The notes below the pieces were generated by a model, which saw nothing but the letters and a program-made list of their open reading frames with translations, searched no databases and was not told where the DNA came from. A program made the position numbers and the translations under genes. 64,000 nucleotides of DNA from Chitinophagaceae bacterium (lineage in GTDB: Bacteria; Bacteroidota; Bacteroidia; Chitinophagales; Chitinophagaceae), in contig JADBXR010000008.1 of NCBI GenBank assembly GCA_020403425.1, positions 124,001 to 188,000 of the forward strand. Reading direction: 5' to 3'. Positions 18,193 to 27,920 of the stretch are shown here, in pieces. Numbering within the stretch: position 1 is the first letter of the stretch; each line of letters starts with the position of its first letter.

Positions 18193-19188
18193 TTAAGCCT
18201 GCAAAGGCCTTATTTTTTGGTTAAGTAACATCAGATCGGCCAGCACCATTGCCGTAACCGCCTCCATTACAACGGGCACCCTGAGGGCGATACAGAGATC
18301 ATGCCGCCCCTTGACAGAAAAGGTTTCCAACTCATTGGTCTCCCAATTAAGGGTAATCTGTTCTTTAGGAGTAGATGAGGTAGGCTTTATAACTATCCTG
18401 TAAATCAATTCATTGCCATTTGTTATACCGCCCACTATCCCACCTGCATGGTTGGTCTTGGTTTTTCCGGTTGCATCCAGTATCGGGTCATTATGATCTA
18501 CGCCGAACATCTTTGCAGCGGCAAAACCCGCCCCAAATTCCACCCCTTTTACGGCCGGAATGGCAAATACGGCATGGGCCAGCAGTGATTCCACCGAGTC
18601 AAAGAAATGTTCTCCCAGTCCTACCGGCAGGCCATTCACCCTGCATTCCACAATACCTCCGATGCTGTCTTTGGCCTCAATGGCTTTTTCCAGTCCTTTC
18701 TCCAGGTCCGACTCCCCGCCTATCTCGAGTATGGTGGACCGGATATCGATCCCTTTCAGCAGTTTTTTAGCGATCACACCGGCGGCCACCAGACATACGG
18801 TCAGCCGGCCGCTGAAATGGCCACCTCCCCGGAAATCTTCAAAACCGCCATATTTGGCATGAGCGGTAAAATCGGCATGTCCCGGACGCGGTACTTCCCT
18901 TTGTTTCTCATAATCCCCACTCCGGGTATTCTTGTTCTCAAAAAGGATGGTGACCGGCGCTCCGGTGGTATGGCCATTAAAGATCCCTGATTTGAAAATT
19001 GGCAGGTCGTCTTCCTTGCGGGGGGTAGTGCCTTTTTGTACCCCACCTTTCCTGCGTTCGATATCTTCCAGGAAATCGGAGACGGAAAGCGGCAGACCGG
19101 CCGGACAGCCATCTACCACCAGGCCCACGGATTCTCCATGCGATTCGCCAAAAATATGAATACGGAATATGCGGCCGAAACTGTTCAC
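18193..19188 (-). CDS. aroC: Chorismate synthase
   Basis: 331 aa; GESHGESVGLVVDGCPAG, RPGHADFT, GAGFAAAKMFGVDHND, RHDLCIALRVPVVMEAVTA; GTG start. Confidence 0.96.
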   Translation of the reverse strand: MNSFGRIFRIHIFGESHGESVGLVVDGCPAGLPLSVSDFLEDIERRKGGVQKGTTPRKEDDLPIFKSGIFNGHTTGAPVTILFENKNTRSGDYEKQREVPRPGHADFTAHAKYGGFEDFRGGGHFSGRLTVCLVAAGVIAKKLLKGIDIRSTILEIGGESDLEKGLEKAIEAKDSIGGIVECRVNGLPVGLGEHFFDSVESLLAHAVFAIPAVKGVEFGAGFAAAKMFGVDHNDPILDATGKTKTNHAGGIVGGITNGNELIYRIVIKPTSSTPKEQITLNWETNELETFSVKGRHDLCIALRVPVVMEAVTAMVLADLMLLNQKIRPLQA

Positions 19189-19222
19189 GGTTGTTGGTTT
19201 ATTGGTTTGTTGGTATTCTTGT

Positions 19223-20497
19223 TTATCGGTTCACAGCAGCACCCAGTTCTTGCAGGTGCTGGTAAAAGGCAGGATAGGATTTGTTGATTGCTTCCGCCTC
19301 TTCGATGGTCACCCCGCTGCTGGCTTTTAAACCTGCCACGGCGCAGGCCATGGCGATCCGGTGGTCGTGGCGCGATTGTGTGACCCCTCCTTTTACGCCG
19401 GTACCGCCCTTGATCAGCATCAGGTCATCCTGCAGGTTGATTTCGATACCCAATTTAGCAAACTCCTGCTGTAATGTAAGGGCACGGTTGCTTTCTTTAT
19501 GGGCAAGCCGGTGTACCCCTTCGATCACAGTGGTACCTTCGCAGTAGGCAGCCAGGGCCACCAGGGGCGGGAACAGGTCCGGACAATCGTTCGCATCAAA
19601 ATGGAAAGCCTGCAAAGGCAATGGGCCGATCTCGATCTCTTCCGGGCGTATGGACAGCTGGCAACCACATGCCACCAGCGCCTCCAGCACGGCTTTATCC
19701 GCCTGTGTGGAGACGATATCCAGTCCCTGTACCGTGATCGGACCGGCAATGGCGCCGGCTACCAGCAGAAAAGCGGCTCCGCTCCAGTCGCCTTCCACCG
19801 TATACGCTAACGGGGCATGGTGCCGGACCGGCTCCTGGGAACGGGTGAAACGGAAAGAGCGATATTCGTTATTCTCCACTTCCCAGCCAAAATGTTTCAT
19901 CACCTGGAGGGTTAGGTCAATATAGGGTTTGCTTTTCAGGTCTTTAACGGTAATGGTCACATCATCGGCTCCGGCAGCCCCGAATGCCATGAGTAAACCG
20001 GTCAGGAACTGCGAACTCAGGGAGCCGTCCACTTCAATATTGGCCGGGCGTAAAGGCCCCTTGATCTGCAGTGGTAATTTCCCCTGCTGAGAGGCTACGG
20101 ATACGCCAAGCTGGGGCAATATCTGATCAAAGAAGTCCATGGGTCGGGTAAGTAGACTTCCGGTACCATTCAGTGTGATGGGCTCACTGCTCAATGCGGC
20201 AATGGGGGTGAACATACGGATGCCCAGGCCACTCTCGCCACAGTTGACCTCAGTATACCTGGGCTGGATGCCCCCTGAACGGATATGAAGGTCGCCGTTC
20301 TCTGCATACGAGATCTCAGCACCCAGTTTTTGGATCACATCGATGGCAGCAAGGTCGTCATTGCTGTTACCGGGATTACGCAGGATGGTCTCTCCCACGG
20401 TCAGCAATGCTGCGGCACAGGCCCGTTGCATACTGCTTTTACTGGCAGCGGCCCGGATCTGCCCCGATAGTTGCGAAGGTTGTATTTGTACGATCAT
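19223..20497 (-). CDS. aroA: 3-phosphoshikimate 1-carboxyvinyltransferase (EPSP synthase)
   Basis: 424 aa; AASKSSMQRACAAALL, CGESGLGIRMFTPIAAL, SSQFLTGLLMAFGAA, HDHRIAMACAVAGL. Confidence 0.94.
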   Translation of the reverse strand: MIVQIQPSQLSGQIRAAASKSSMQRACAAALLTVGETILRNPGNSNDDLAAIDVIQKLGAEISYAENGDLHIRSGGIQPRYTEVNCGESGLGIRMFTPIAALSSEPITLNGTGSLLTRPMDFFDQILPQLGVSVASQQGKLPLQIKGPLRPANIEVDGSLSSQFLTGLLMAFGAAGADDVTITVKDLKSKPYIDLTLQVMKHFGWEVENNEYRSFRFTRSQEPVRHHAPLAYTVEGDWSGAAFLLVAGAIAGPITVQGLDIVSTQADKAVLEALVACGCQLSIRPEEIEIGPLPLQAFHFDANDCPDLFPPLVALAAYCEGTTVIEGVHRLAHKESNRALTLQQEFAKLGIEINLQDDLMLIKGGTGVKGGVTQSRHDHRIAMACAVAGLKASSGVTIEEAEAINKSYPAFYQHLQELGAAVNR

Positions 20498-20535
20498 TCT
20501 TGGATTGCGGATTACGGATCAGGTGTTTTTCCTGT

Positions 20536-21561
20536 TTATTTTCCGAATTGTTTGAAGATGTCCTGGAGCTGAACAAGCAACAATGGCTGCACCACTCCTT
20601 TTCCGATCTTTTCCAGCAGGATATAGTTGATGCTCACATTGTCTTTCTTCTTGTCCATCATCAGGACCTTGAAGGCTTTTTTGGTATTGAACTGGGCCAG
20701 CGTGGGCAAACCATATTGTTCCAGCACTTTTACCACCAGTTCGGCACCTGTGAAATGTTTGAGTTGCTGCGACATCACCGCCGCATAGGTCATCCCGATG
20801 CTGATGGCCTGGCCATGGCTCAATTCATACATATTCTCAATGGCGTGCCCCAGCGTATGTCCGAAATTCAACAGTTTACGTTCTCCCTGTTCGAACTCAT
20901 CGCCCTGCACCACTTTGGTTTTGATCAGGACATTCTGTTCGATGAGCGCGGACAGGAGTTTCCCGTTCTTCTGATAGTCAGAGAGCTTGTGTTTCTGCAG
21001 CTGGCGGAACATGACCGCATCCTTGATGCAGGCATGTTTGATGATCTCCGCAAAACCGTTCTGCCATTCAGCTTTGGGCAGGGTTGCCAGGAACGAGGTA
21101 TCGAACAGCAGGAAAGCAGGTTGCCTGATCAGCCCTACCATGTTCTTATACACACCCACATCGATCCCGTTCTTGCCACCGATGGATGCGTCCACCATGG
21201 CCAGCAGGGAAGTAGGTACGAACCCGAAACGAATGCCGCGCATATAGATACCGGCCACATAACCAGTGATATCAGTTACCACGCCGCCACCAACCCCGAT
21301 CAGGGTGGTTTTGCGGTCGGCCCCGAGGGCAATGAGCTGATCGATCACCACATCGACCGTTTGCTGTACTTTATATTTTTCCCCGGCTTTGAGTACGATG
21401 GTGTTCCAGCCTTTGAATTTCTTCTTGTGTTTGGCAAAAACATGTTCATCCGTAACGATGACCGCATTTTCTTTGGGCGCCAGTTTCTCTACCTGCGCAA
21501 AATCGGCATCGAAATAATACGCTACCGTAGTATTCGAGAATGTAAAACTTCTTTTTTTCAT
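20536..21561 (-). CDS. aroB: 3-dehydroquinate synthase
   Basis: 341 aa; GVGGGVVTDITGYVAGIYMRGIRFGFVPTSLLAMVDASIGGKNGID and NFGHTLGHAIE. Confidence 0.96.
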   Translation of the reverse strand: MKKRSFTFSNTTVAYYFDADFAQVEKLAPKENAVIVTDEHVFAKHKKKFKGWNTIVLKAGEKYKVQQTVDVVIDQLIALGADRKTTLIGVGGGVVTDITGYVAGIYMRGIRFGFVPTSLLAMVDASIGGKNGIDVGVYKNMVGLIRQPAFLLFDTSFLATLPKAEWQNGFAEIIKHACIKDAVMFRQLQKHKLSDYQKNGKLLSALIEQNVLIKTKVVQGDEFEQGERKLLNFGHTLGHAIENMYELSHGQAISIGMTYAAVMSQQLKHFTGAELVVKVLEQYGLPTLAQFNTKKAFKVLMMDKKKDNVSINYILLEKIGKGVVQPLLLVQLQDIFKQFGK

Positions 21562-21564
21562 GAG

Positions 21565-21640
21565 ATTAGCGAATTAGCGGATATCGGATCGGCGGATTGA
21601 ATCATTCGCCGATCCGTTGATCCGTAATGCGTGAATTAGG
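21565..21640. repeat. GGAT-word intergenic inverted repeat (aroB-DAHPS spacer)
   Basis: Perfect 10-bp CGGATCGGCG (21585-21594)/CGCCGATCCG (21607-21616) within gattagcgaattagcggatatcgg...gatccgttgatccgtaatgcgtgaattagg. Confidence 0.75.
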
Positions 21641-22721
21641 AATTCATGATCTTGTTCTGGTGGTTGATGCTTTCCATGTGTACGGCATCAAAGTATTTGG
21701 TCACGAACTCCTTGCTCAGACCCAACTTATCTCCTTTGGCGAAAGCCCGCTCAAGGATGCTGTTCCAGCGGTTGGTCTGCAGGATGGTGATATCATTCTC
21801 TTTCTTGTATTTACCGATGCTTTCGGCCACTTTCATACGCTGTCCGAGGATCTGCATCAGTTCATCATCCAGGTTGTTGATCTGCTGACGCAGTTTTTCG
21901 AGTGCGGCATGGTACTCAGGTGAGGCCACATCTTCTTTTCTCCAGCGGATACTGCTGATCATTTCACCCAGTTTTTCCGGGGTGATCTGCTGTTTGGCAT
22001 CGCTCCAGGCATTGTCCGGATCGATATGGCTTTCCACGATCAGTCCGTCAAAATCAAGGTCGATCGCTGTCTGCGCCACTTCCTGTAAAATATCCCTTCT
22101 TCCGCAGATATGTGATGGATCATTGATCATCAGCAGTTCCGGGTAACGGCGTTTCATTTCAATGGCCAGGTGCCACATAGGGGCATTCCGGTATTCTGTA
22201 TTACCATAAGAGCTGAAGCCACGGTGTATCAGTCCGATATGTTTGATACCGGCTTTTGCCACACGCTCCATGGCACCGATCCATAGTTCCAGGTCGGGAT
22301 TGATGGGGTTCTTGATCAGTACGGGCACATCCACACCACGCAGGGCATCGGCCACGTCCTGCACACTGAACGGGTTGACCGTGGTACGGGCACCGATCCA
22401 AAGTACATCCACGCCAAAATGCAGTGCATCTTCTACCTGTTTACCGGTAGCCACTTCCACGGCCACGGGTAAACCCGACGCCTTTCTCGCAGCCTGCAAC
22501 CAGGGCAGGCCCTTGGTACCAATGCCCTCAAAACTGCCTGGGCGGGTACGGGGTTTCCAGATACCTGCACGCAGGATATCCACTTTACCTGTTGCGGCCA
22601 AACGTAAGGCCGTTTGCATTACCTGCTCTTCTGTTTCGGCGCTGCAGGGACCTGAAATAATGAGTGGACGCTTCTGTAATAATGCTTCCACGGATGTTGC
22701 CTGTTCAATTACTTGCTCCAT
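21636..22721 (-). CDS. Bifunctional DAHP synthase / chorismate mutase
   Basis: N-terminal KDSA-type DAHP synthase (ISGPCSAETEEQV, RAGIWKPRTRPGSFEGIG, NDPSHICGRR) and C-terminal AroQ-type chorismate mutase helix region (LEKLRQQINNLDDELMQILGQRMKVAESIGKYKKEN). Confidence 0.93.
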   Translation of the reverse strand: MEQVIEQATSVEALLQKRPLIISGPCSAETEEQVMQTALRLAATGKVDILRAGIWKPRTRPGSFEGIGTKGLPWLQAARKASGLPVAVEVATGKQVEDALHFGVDVLWIGARTTVNPFSVQDVADALRGVDVPVLIKNPINPDLELWIGAMERVAKAGIKHIGLIHRGFSSYGNTEYRNAPMWHLAIEMKRRYPELLMINDPSHICGRRDILQEVAQTAIDLDFDGLIVESHIDPDNAWSDAKQQITPEKLGEMISSIRWRKEDVASPEYHAALEKLRQQINNLDDELMQILGQRMKVAESIGKYKKENDITILQTNRWNSILERAFAKGDKLGLSKEFVTKYFDAVHMESINHQNKIMNS

Positions 22722-22832
22722 GTTGTGTTTTGTTACTGTTTGTATGTATGATATTGTTGTATCGGTGTCGGGGCGACCCATGTGCTGGCCGGCAATCTAT
22801 CACCAGTCCACAGGTCAACCCTCACCTTCATT

Positions 22833-24571: not shown

Positions 24572-24682
24572 CTTTTTATATACCTCTTTACCCTTTTTTT
24601 GTTTGAAACCCAGCAGCAGCGTGGATTTCAGCTGTTCTTGCGTCGCACACTTGTACTTCCATTCCTCCTATCGGCTATGATT

Positions 24683-24763
24683 GGCGGATTAGCGGATGGC
24701 GGATCGGCGAATTAGAAAATAACTATTAAACCCGATCCGTTAATCCGTGATCCGCAAATCCGG
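24683..24763. repeat. Imperfect inverted repeat built from GGAT/ATCC words (tyrA-helicase spacer)
   Basis: ggcggattagcggatggcggatcgg ... ccgatccgttaatccgtgatccgcaaatccgg; perfect core CGGATCGG (24700-24707)/CCGATCCG (24732-24739). Confidence 0.7.
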
Positions 24764-24765
24764 AA

Positions 24766-25605
24766 TCATTTCAAGATCCGCCGGATCCCGTTCGCTTTTT
24801 CTATCAATTCTGCCAGGTATTCATAATTCTCCTTCTCCAGGCAGGACTTGAATTTTCTCAGCTGCGCAATATGCTCATTCAAAACATCCAACACATTATC
24901 TTTATTCTGCATAAATATAGGCACCCACATGGCCGGATTACTTTTGGCCAAACGCACCGTACTTTCAAAACCACCACTGGCCAGCTCAAAAATGGCATCT
25001 TCTTCCCGCTCCTTCTCCAGTACCGTATTGGCCAGGGCAAAGGAAGTGATATGGGAGATATGGCTCACATAGGCCACATGCACATCATGGTCTTCCGCAT
25101 CCATGTATACGATGTGCATGCCCAGCAATCCGTACAACTGCTCCACCAGTGCCACCGCATCTGCATCACTGTTCTCTTTGTTACAGATCACCGTGGCCTT
25201 TTTCTCAAAAGCATTTTTCACGGCCGCTTCCGGTCCGCTGTATTCGGTTCCCCACATGGGGTGGGTGGCCACAAAACGACCGCGTTTGGGGCTTTGCATC
25301 GCCGCTTCACAGATCGTTTTTTTGGTGGATCCCACATCCATGACCACCTGCCGATCCACCATTTGTAATACCAGCGGCAACAATGCTTCTGCGGCGTTGA
25401 TGGGCGTGGCCAGTATCACCAGGCCGGACTCCTGTACGGCAGCGTGTAATTCCTTCACTTCATCCACCAGGCCCAGCGCAAGCGCTTTCTGTGCATGTTC
25501 CGGATTGGCATCCACGCCGATCAGTTTGGTGGCGAAACCTTTTTCCTTCAGTGTCAGGGCCATGGAACCTCCAATAAGTCCGACACCGATTATGGTAATT
25601 GTCAT
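24766..25605 (-). CDS. tyrA: Prephenate dehydrogenase
   Basis: 279 aa; GVGLIGGSMALTLKEKG Rossmann motif, THPMWGTEYSGPEAA, HVAYVSHISHITSFALA. Confidence 0.9.
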   Translation of the reverse strand: MTITIIGVGLIGGSMALTLKEKGFATKLIGVDANPEHAQKALALGLVDEVKELHAAVQESGLVILATPINAAEALLPLVLQMVDRQVVMDVGSTKKTICEAAMQSPKRGRFVATHPMWGTEYSGPEAAVKNAFEKKATVICNKENSDADAVALVEQLYGLLGMHIVYMDAEDHDVHVAYVSHISHITSFALANTVLEKEREEDAIFELASGGFESTVRLAKSNPAMWVPIFMQNKDNVLDVLNEHIAQLRKFKSCLEKENYEYLAELIEKANGIRRILK

Positions 25606-25643: not shown

Positions 25644-26804
25644 TCAACGGCTCTCGCGGATCCTCTTTATCGCTTCCCCGAATCTTTCGATGCTTCCACA
25701 GAGACTTACCCTGATATATCCGTCCCCGGCAGTTCCGAAGATGCCGCCAGGTGTGATGAATACATTGGCCTGGTAAAGTACTTCATCGCTCAGTTCATAA
25801 CCGCTGCTGTATTTAGCAGGGATCTTTGCCCATACGAACAGGCCTACCTGGTTCCTGGAAAACTCGCAGTCCAGTAGGTTCAGCAGTTCAAATACCTTTT
25901 CCCTGCGTTCCGTGTAAATGGCATTGATATCATCGTACCAGTCTTTTCCCAATCCCAGCGCTTTGGCTGCAGCCAGTTGCAGGGGCAGGAACATACCGCT
26001 GTCCATATTGCTTTTGAAGCGGAGGATCTCCTCTACCCTTTCTTTGGCCGCACAGATCATTCCGACCCGCCATCCGGCCATGTTCTGGCTTTTACTCAGC
26101 GAATTCAGCTCGATCACCACTTCTTTGGCGCCATCCATGGCCAGCAGGCTCATGGGTTCAGGATTCAGGATGAAACTATAGGGGTTATCGTGACAAACCA
26201 GGATATTGTGTTTCTTGCCAAAAGCCACGATCTTCTCGAATAAAGACCGTGTAGGCAATTGTCCGGTAGGCATATGCGGGTAGTTGACCCATAGCAGCTT
26301 CACTTTACTGAGGTCCGTTTTCTCCAGTTCGGCAAAATCGGGTTCCCAGTTGTTCGCTTCTTTCATCTCATAAGGCACCGGTTTGCCACCCGCCAGTTTT
26401 ACCGCACTGCTGTAGGTTGGATAACCTGGGTTGGGTATCAGGGCCTCATCCCCTTCATTCAGGTAGGTCATACAGATATGCATGATACCTTCCTTACTGC
26501 CGATCAGTGGCAGCACTTCGGTTTCCGGGTCCAGGGCAACACCATACCAGGCAGCGTACCAGTCGGCAATGGCCTTGCGCAATACGGGCGATCCCTTATA
26601 GCTTTGATAAGCATGGGTATTGGGCTTTTCGGCCTCTTCCTGCAATACTTTGATCACATCGGGATGCGGGGGCAGGTCCGGACTGCCGATACCGAGGTTG
26701 ATGATGTTCTTGCCCTGTTTGTTTAGCTGCTCTATTTCGCGCAGTTTCTGCGAAAAATAGTATTCACCGATACCTTCCAGCCTCTTTGAAGTAGCTACTG
26801 TCAT
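25644..26804 (-). CDS. PLP-dependent class I/II aminotransferase
   Basis: 386 aa; NLGIGSPDLPPHPDV, NPGYPTYSSAV, HDNPYSFI, ELNSLSKSQNMAGWRVGM; sits between pheA and tyrA, consistent with aromatic aminotransferase. Confidence 0.88.
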   Translation of the reverse strand: MTVATSKRLEGIGEYYFSQKLREIEQLNKQGKNIINLGIGSPDLPPHPDVIKVLQEEAEKPNTHAYQSYKGSPVLRKAIADWYAAWYGVALDPETEVLPLIGSKEGIMHICMTYLNEGDEALIPNPGYPTYSSAVKLAGGKPVPYEMKEANNWEPDFAELEKTDLSKVKLLWVNYPHMPTGQLPTRSLFEKIVAFGKKHNILVCHDNPYSFILNPEPMSLLAMDGAKEVVIELNSLSKSQNMAGWRVGMICAAKERVEEILRFKSNMDSGMFLPLQLAAAKALGLGKDWYDDINAIYTERREKVFELLNLLDCEFSRNQVGLFVWAKIPAKYSSGYELSDEVLYQANVFITPGGIFGTAGDGYIRVSLCGSIERFGEAIKRIRESR

Positions 26805-26807
26805 ATA

Positions 26808-27722
26808 TTATCCTTTTACAACTTTTCCTTTTTGGTAGATCCCGAATATTTTCACGCTGTTGGTCAGAGACTCGATGGAAGCCAGCACCGCCTCGAACTG
26901 TTTACGAGAGTCGAACTCCAGGTCTGCATAAAAACCATATTTGAAATTGCTTCCCGGTATCGGCATACTCTGCAGTTTGCTCAGGTTAATGCCGCCCTTT
27001 GCGATCTGTGTCAGCACCTGTGCCAATATCCCTTTGGAATGATTGGTCTGAAAATAGAGGGAAGCTTTGTCCGCATTCGGGATCTCCTTCACTTCATTCT
27101 CTCTTTGCAAGACAAGGAAACGGGTCACATTATTTTTCAGGGTATGGATATTGGGAGCGATCACATCCATATCATACAATTCCGCGGCCAGTTTACTGGC
27201 AATGGCCGCGGCATGTTTGCTGTGTTTCTGGTGAATATGTTTGGCACTGAGTGCGGTATCCTCTGTTTCCACCAGTTTCCAGTCGTGTTTCTCCAGGTAA
27301 TCGAGACACTGCAAAATGGCCATGGGATGACTATGTACTTCCCGGATATCTTCCAGCTTCACGCCCTTGTTCACCATCAGGTTCTGGCTGATGGAGAGAT
27401 AGACCTCGCCGATCACTTTCAGTTTACTTTTCTGCAGGAGGTTATAGTTGGGAAGGATACTTCCGGCAATCGAGTTCTCGATGGCCATGATGCCGCCAGC
27501 TGATTGTTTTTTATCGGAAGAGATCCGGATCAGGTCACGGAAAGTGGCGCAGGCGATCACTTCCACCTGTTTGCCAAAAAAGGAACGGGCGGCCACCTGG
27601 TGAAAACTTCCTTCATACCCCTGGATGCAGATACCCCCGGCCTGCGCCTTCTCCTGAGATGGCGCTTTGGGGGCCGCAGCATTTTGTTTCGCGTGTATCG
27701 TCATAAACAGATCCTGTTTCAA
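26808..27722 (-). CDS. pheA: Prephenate dehydratase
   Basis: 304 aa; GYEGSFHQVAA, AIENSIAGSILPNYNLL, HSHPMAILQC, C-terminal ACT region (SKLQSMPIPGSNFKYGFYADLEF). Confidence 0.92.
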   Translation of the reverse strand: MKQDLFMTIHAKQNAAAPKAPSQEKAQAGGICIQGYEGSFHQVAARSFFGKQVEVIACATFRDLIRISSDKKQSAGGIMAIENSIAGSILPNYNLLQKSKLKVIGEVYLSISQNLMVNKGVKLEDIREVHSHPMAILQCLDYLEKHDWKLVETEDTALSAKHIHQKHSKHAAAIASKLAAELYDMDVIAPNIHTLKNNVTRFLVLQRENEVKEIPNADKASLYFQTNHSKGILAQVLTQIAKGGINLSKLQSMPIPGSNFKYGFYADLEFDSRKQFEAVLASIESLTNSVKIFGIYQKGKVVKG

Positions 27723-27739
27723 TTTACCGGCAGTGCCGG

Positions 27740-27773
27740 AAAAAAAATGATCCCGGCCTTATGAGCCGGGATC
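27740..27773 (-). terminator. Attenuator terminator upstream of pheA
   Basis: Minus strand GATCCCGGC-TCATAAG-GCCGGGATC then A and TTTTTTTT; lies between leader peptide stop (27795) and pheA start (27722). Confidence 0.9.
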
Positions 27774-27794
27774 GTATCTTAATTTGTTTCGCTT

Positions 27795-27881
27795 TTATGC
27801 TTTGGCAAATACTACCCGGCTCCTTTTTGTAAAGAAGTAATAAAAAAAGAAAAAGAAAGTATTTGCTGTGATGTTGTTCAT
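27795..27881 (-). CDS. Phe/Tyr leader peptide (attenuator), MNNITANTFFFFFYYFFTKRSRVVFAKA
   Basis: 28 codons read base by base on the minus strand; F5-Y2-F2 run at codons 9-17; TAA at 27795-27797; absent from the supplied ORF track because it is short. Confidence 0.88.
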   Translation of the reverse strand: MNNITANTFFFFFYYFFTKRSRVVFAKA

Positions 27882-27888
27882 GTGATGT

Positions 27889-27920
27889 CAAATATAAGTA
27901 CGGATCGCATTCAAAAACAA
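27889..27920 (-). promoter_or_regulatory. Promoter of pheA leader transcript
   Basis: Minus strand TTG (27920-27918) - 21 nt - TATATTTG (27896-27889), matching the Bacteroidota -33/-7 layout (TTG / TAnnTTTG). Confidence 0.6.

Follow-up and report, generated by a model that had tools for sequence, protein, structure and literature searches.

The window, as we call the whole 64,000-nucleotide stretch of DNA analysed here, comes from a genome placed in the Chitinophagaceae, near Sediminibacterium, and carries a pheA-tyrA-aro cluster on its minus strand. Comparison with NCBIfam gave the gene order prephenate dehydratase, aminotransferase, prephenate dehydrogenase, DEAD-box helicase, DAHP synthase-chorismate mutase fusion, AroB, AroA and AroC, with several of the proteins, PheA included, falling under the strict equivalog cut-offs. 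The pheA gene (26808..27704) matched NF008865 with an E-value of 1.9e-58 and 197.9 bits, under the cut-off of 219, and is followed by a class I aminotransferase gene (25644-26804), named at class level only, by tyrA (24766-25605), which scored above its cut-off, and by the distal genes aroF-chorismate mutase, aroB, aroA and aroC (18193..22781). A possible TTG start of pheA at 27722 had been taken as its beginning, but this TTG is the first start in the ORF listing, and initiation at the in-frame ATG 27704 is no less likely. Palindromic repeats containing CGGATCGG/CCGATCCG and ATCCGCTAAT occur in the tyrA-helicase gap (24680-24735) and in the aroF-aroB gap (21575-21625); these are the only exact copies of the pattern genome-wide, where two further copies have 2 mismatches.

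Upstream of pheA, re-reading of the minus strand located a promoter (27889..27920) consisting of TTG at 27920-27918, N21 and TATATTTG at 27896-27889, the latter corresponding to the Bacteroidota -7 box TAnnTTTG and lying 7 nt ahead of the ATG of a leader ORF. This ORF, MNNITANTFFFFFYYFFTKRSRVVFAKA, extends from the ATG at 27881 to the stop codon at 27795 and includes nine Phe or Tyr codons in a row (seven Phe and two Tyr; codons 9-17, 27831..27857), which are the proposed sensor. Promoter and leader ORF were thus found as originally described, and a search of the 3.72 Mb genome for the pattern of the run, with up to 2 mismatches allowed, gave this single occurrence.

The distance between promoter and leader ORF is short in most of the family: of 102 members with an identified TAnnTTTG box, 85 had it ending at most 8 nt from the leader ATG, and in 50 of those 85 the distance was exactly 7 nt. 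In Flavobacterium johnsoniae, the last G of the -7 box is at -5 relative to the transcription start site (PMC6847099), and by this rule we infer a 5' UTR of about 3 nt in the window and of about 0-4 nt in the family. For comparison, only about 3.7% of the 5' UTRs of Bacteroides thetaiotaomicron are below 10 nt (PMC7366714). We assume that the leader is translated without a Shine-Dalgarno sequence despite its shortness. The idea that a near-leaderless start is unique to the leader was dropped, since a distance of 4 nt between box and ATG recurs at other genes of these loci. A lipB-like gene, for example, has a TAnnTTTG box 4 nt before its ATG in L077, L078, L094, L096 and other relatives, and mRNAs with almost no 5' UTR may therefore be frequent in the Chitinophagaceae.

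Alternative pairings in the leader RNA

The 166-nt leader folds more stably than its shuffled versions (z = -5.4). The octamer GAGCCGGG (27822-27815), its complement CCCGGCTC (27770-27763) and the intrinsic terminator, GATCCCGGC / GCCGGGATC with T8 (27740..27773; segments 3:4, ending in U8), all lie where the original prediction had placed them, but the anti-terminator pairing runs past the 8 nt named there. Its predicted 5' arm is segment 2, AGGAGCCGGGTAGTATTTGCC (27804..27824), which contains a CCGGG core, and its 3' arm is segment 3, AAGATACGATCCCGGCTC (27763..27780), which overlaps the 5' arm of the terminator. A further hairpin, overlooked earlier, appeared in the minimum free energy fold: segment 1 (27852..27866), which is made up of the codons directly ahead of the F/Y run and has GCAAATAC at the start of the pairing region, also has segment 2 as its partner, and the resulting 1:2 hairpin is formed by GCAAAUAC with GUAUUUGC. 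A small hairpin, CCGGCACTGCCGG, lies directly past the U-run of the terminator (27727-27739) and is present in close relatives too.

As had been proposed, anti-terminator and terminator are mutually exclusive, and they are of nearly equal strength, with computed energies of -20.2 kcal/mol for the 2:3 pairing, -19.7 kcal/mol for the terminator alone and -16.6 kcal/mol for the 1:2 hairpin; timing would therefore decide between them. The original prediction also held that a ribosome at the stop codon covers GAGCCGGG. Between the end of this octamer and the stop codon, however, there are 17 nt, and, judging from the usual ribosome footprint, the part of segment 2 covered by a ribosome at termination would be its 3' half only (GUAGUAUUUGCC). 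Because of this 17-nt gap, repression is more likely to proceed via the 1:2 hairpin.

Conservation of the leader and competing explanations

PheA homologues were sought in 200 Chitinophagaceae genomes and in a named genome collection, which yielded 131 distinct regions upstream of pheA that were long enough for the comparison. A short F/Y-rich ORF together with an intrinsic terminator was found in 127 of them, the terminator standing between leader and first gene behind every one of the 127 leaders, and the remaining four (L103, L121, L142 and L143) had no F/Y leader. Homologous upstream regions had been named as the place where the original prediction could fail; nearly all of those examined had the F/Y ORF and the paired segments. 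With its nine F/Y codons in the window and its counterparts at 127 loci, the leader is a short ORF rich in codons for the end products of the cluster.

The composition of the run bears on which amino acids are sensed. Across the relatives, the run residues comprised 662 F, 361 Y and 55 of all others, and this excess of Phe, like the ratio of seven to two in the window, would be expected of an attenuator sensing Phe only, in which the Tyr codons are neutral substitutes within the stalling run. We nonetheless regard this reading as unlikely, because Tyr is encoded at least once in all 127 distinct leaders and three or more times in most of them, and because the order pheA-aat-tyrA, with tyrA behind pheA, is kept in 50 of 50 relatives with long flanks. 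A role in sensing Trp was rejected, since W occurs in just 18 of 124 leaders and is too rare. The joint sensing of Phe and Tyr is the preferred reading.

The leader separates into two parts that appear to be under different constraints. Of the gap runs in alignment A1 (89 leaders), 193 lay between the start codon and the last F/Y codon, and every one of these had a length divisible by three, whereas 75 of the 133 located just past the F/Y run did not. The CCGGG core is present in nearly all relatives and, because the codon frame is lost after the F/Y run, sits in different frames: 64 leaders have it in frame 0 (read as RPGMLLLK or PGCFC*), 44 have it in frame 2 (SRVVFAKA) and two have it in frame 1. 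Its distance from the end of the run was 9 nt in 59 and 11 nt in 40 of the 110 leaders scored. The comparison thus points to selection on codons as far as the last F/Y codon and on RNA pairing beyond it, the tail being conserved as RNA and not as peptide. These features bear as well on an arrest peptide that, in the manner of TnaC, would respond to free Phe or Tyr inside the tunnel of the ribosome instead of to tRNA charging. The leader is hydrophobic and aromatic, and such a ribosome-based switch could use the same RNA parts, but arrest peptides keep specific residues, while here the run length (7-10 residues), the order of F and Y and the C-terminal tail vary freely, with the tails in different frames, which makes an arrest peptide very improbable when compared with a sensor of charged tRNA.

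The leader is also confined to pheA. In a control scan of 50 related loci, which together held 923 genes with products of 150 aa or more, 46 upstream regions reached the threshold of at least 7 F/Y in 10 codons, every one of them belonging to pheA, and no F/Y leader ORF was seen ahead of the about 877 non-pheA genes. In a T-rich region with an upstream gene on the same strand, one might suspect that the hairpin simply terminates that gene and that the F/Y ORF arises incidentally from the abundance of T. This is already contradicted and scarcely conceivable, given that the upstream gene is terminated separately, at about 28024, that a promoter lies between this terminator and the leader ORF, that the indels of the ORF are all multiples of three and that other upstream regions yield no such ORF.

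The pairings themselves were compared across loci. The original prediction called for covarying hairpins, and column-wise base-pair covariation in the alignment was clear for the terminator only; for the 1:2 and 2:3 pairings it was unclear, because the core is almost invariant and the register differs between leader classes. Own-locus pairing was stronger than pairing between segments swapped among the family loci. For 2:3, the mean energy was -20.6 kcal/mol with the own partner, -17.3 kcal/mol with swapped partners (SD of means 0.23) and -8.0 kcal/mol after shuffling, and the corresponding values for 1:2 were -14.7, -11.9 (SD of means 0.21) and -8.6 kcal/mol; support for these two pairings comes from the swap tests, in which the relatedness of the loci is left uncorrected. 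Folds, swaps and the 9/11 nt spacing together indicate an exclusive anti-terminator and a 1:2 hairpin suitably spaced from the codons, with partners that vary together across loci.

Proposed mechanism and extent of control

Taken together, these results make it highly probable, as far as comparison of sequences can tell, that the locus is a ribosome-mediated transcription attenuator sensing charged tRNA-Phe and tRNA-Tyr. Transcription would begin a few bases ahead of the ATG of the leader ORF, and the nearly leaderless mRNA would be loaded by a ribosome without a Shine-Dalgarno sequence. When Phe and Tyr are sufficient, the ribosome is expected to traverse the F/Y run and terminate, its footprint and later the 1:2 hairpin holding segment 2 off segment 3, so that the terminator 3:4 would form and RNA polymerase would halt ahead of pheA. 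When Phe-tRNA or Tyr-tRNA is scarce, the ribosome would stall in the run and mask segment 1, and segment 2, located 9-11 nt past the run, could then pair with segment 3, allowing read-through into pheA-aat-tyrA.

Read-through into the aro genes is probably partial. The original prediction had the attenuator gating the whole cluster, but it does not appear to do so alone, as the DEAD-box helicase gene in the tyrA-aroF gap has its own conserved -7 box, TACCTTTG (24571-24564), 18 nt ahead of its ATG. A -7 box at the same spacing was found in 13 relatives. The distal aro genes therefore need not depend wholly on the attenuator, and aroF, aroB, aroA and aroC are possibly only partly under it. The cluster order through aroC is intact in 42 of 50 loci, and the helicase gene lies between tyrA and aroF in about 29 of the 50.

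Related leaders and known attenuators

Outside the Chitinophagaceae, 25 loci represented other families within the same order and class (Bacteroidia); an F/Y leader with a terminator was found at 22 of these, the other three being without the leader. Elsewhere in the phylum, 4 of 15 loci had leader and terminator. The cores of other families differ yet stay complementary, as in CAGGATTGT with ACAATCCTG, GAGGCTTTG with its complement, and CGGGACT with AGTCCCG. In these families, the 2:3 pairing had an energy of -18.2 kcal/mol with the own partner versus -11.9 kcal/mol with swapped partners and the 1:2 pairing -10.2 versus -8.2 kcal/mol, none of 1000 swaps being as strong in either case. Such complementary cores are, in our comparison, the strongest evidence for the predicted anti-terminator. 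Besides, the 5' UTRs of these leaders seem longer or are unrecognised, unlike the nearly leaderless starts of the Chitinophagaceae. We see about even chances that the Bacteroidia share an ancient, uncatalogued family of Phe/Tyr attenuators, with the sensor ORF in Chitinophagaceae being translated from an almost leaderless mRNA with no use of Shine-Dalgarno sequences. If this is true, attenuation working there would show tight transcription-translation coupling at the very 5' end of a transcript in Bacteroidota.

At gathering threshold, no Rfam family, riboswitch and T-box models included, was detected in the 64,000-nt window. In a permissive scan of the leader against 4227 families, the best was Phe_leader (RF01859), with 24.6 bits and an E-value of 0.035 over the full model (1-125), the score falling below the gathering cut-off of 55 bits and thus outside membership of that family. 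The match to E. coli pheL/pheA put forward originally consequently holds for the mechanism and not for the family. Like pheL-pheA, the present leader has a short Phe-rich ORF, the 1:2, 2:3 and 3:4 pairings, an intrinsic terminator and pheA as its target; unlike it, the leader belongs to another phylum, has Tyr codons intermixed, lacks a Shine-Dalgarno sequence, starts nearly leaderless and precedes a larger cluster. Single leader peptides with codons for more than one operon product are known from E. coli ilvL and thrL, which share this feature with the present leader and differ from it in amino acids, operons and sequence, the latter being unrelated.

None of the papers covered by our literature search was found to describe the Phe/Tyr leader of pheA; Bacteroidetes may be treated in a comparative study that Lopatovskaya et al. 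published in 2010 and that is cited in PMC4833913. In 2010, the known leader-peptide attenuators were said to be confined to Proteobacteria and Actinobacteria, and the paper saying so added Firmicutes (PMC2965389). Closer to the present case, a transcriptome study of Flavobacterium psychrophilum (Guerin et al., 2021; PMC9723704) reported a structured 5' element at pheA that is absent from Rfam and conserved within Flavobacteriaceae, as well as clues of leader peptides upstream of amino-acid operons. This element resembles the present leader in belonging to Bacteroidota, in lying ahead of pheA and in having no Rfam entry, while the main text of that study describes neither an F/Y ORF nor the pairings. 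The mechanism proposed here is the textbook one of pheL and trpL, and what is new is the uncatalogued leader family and its unusual translation start. Overall, the leaders provide a class-wide, well-supported case of leader-peptide attenuation in Bacteroidota, a phylum in which ribosomes make no use of Shine-Dalgarno sequences, and a compact substrate for asking whether transcription and translation are coupled there; those collected are also sufficient in number for building an RNA family.

Other amino-acid genes of the same genome were inspected for comparable leaders. None was seen upstream of three ilvD-family genes. Before trpE (L153), a Trp leader ORF, MNQITNKYWWWHTNSVRGL, is followed by a terminator, CCCCGACAG...TTGTCGGGG-T6, and is likely a second attenuator in this genome. 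On the same contig (C27), a His leader ORF, MKTFAHTHHHHFLPQG, precedes hisG (L152) and is accompanied by a terminator-like hairpin.
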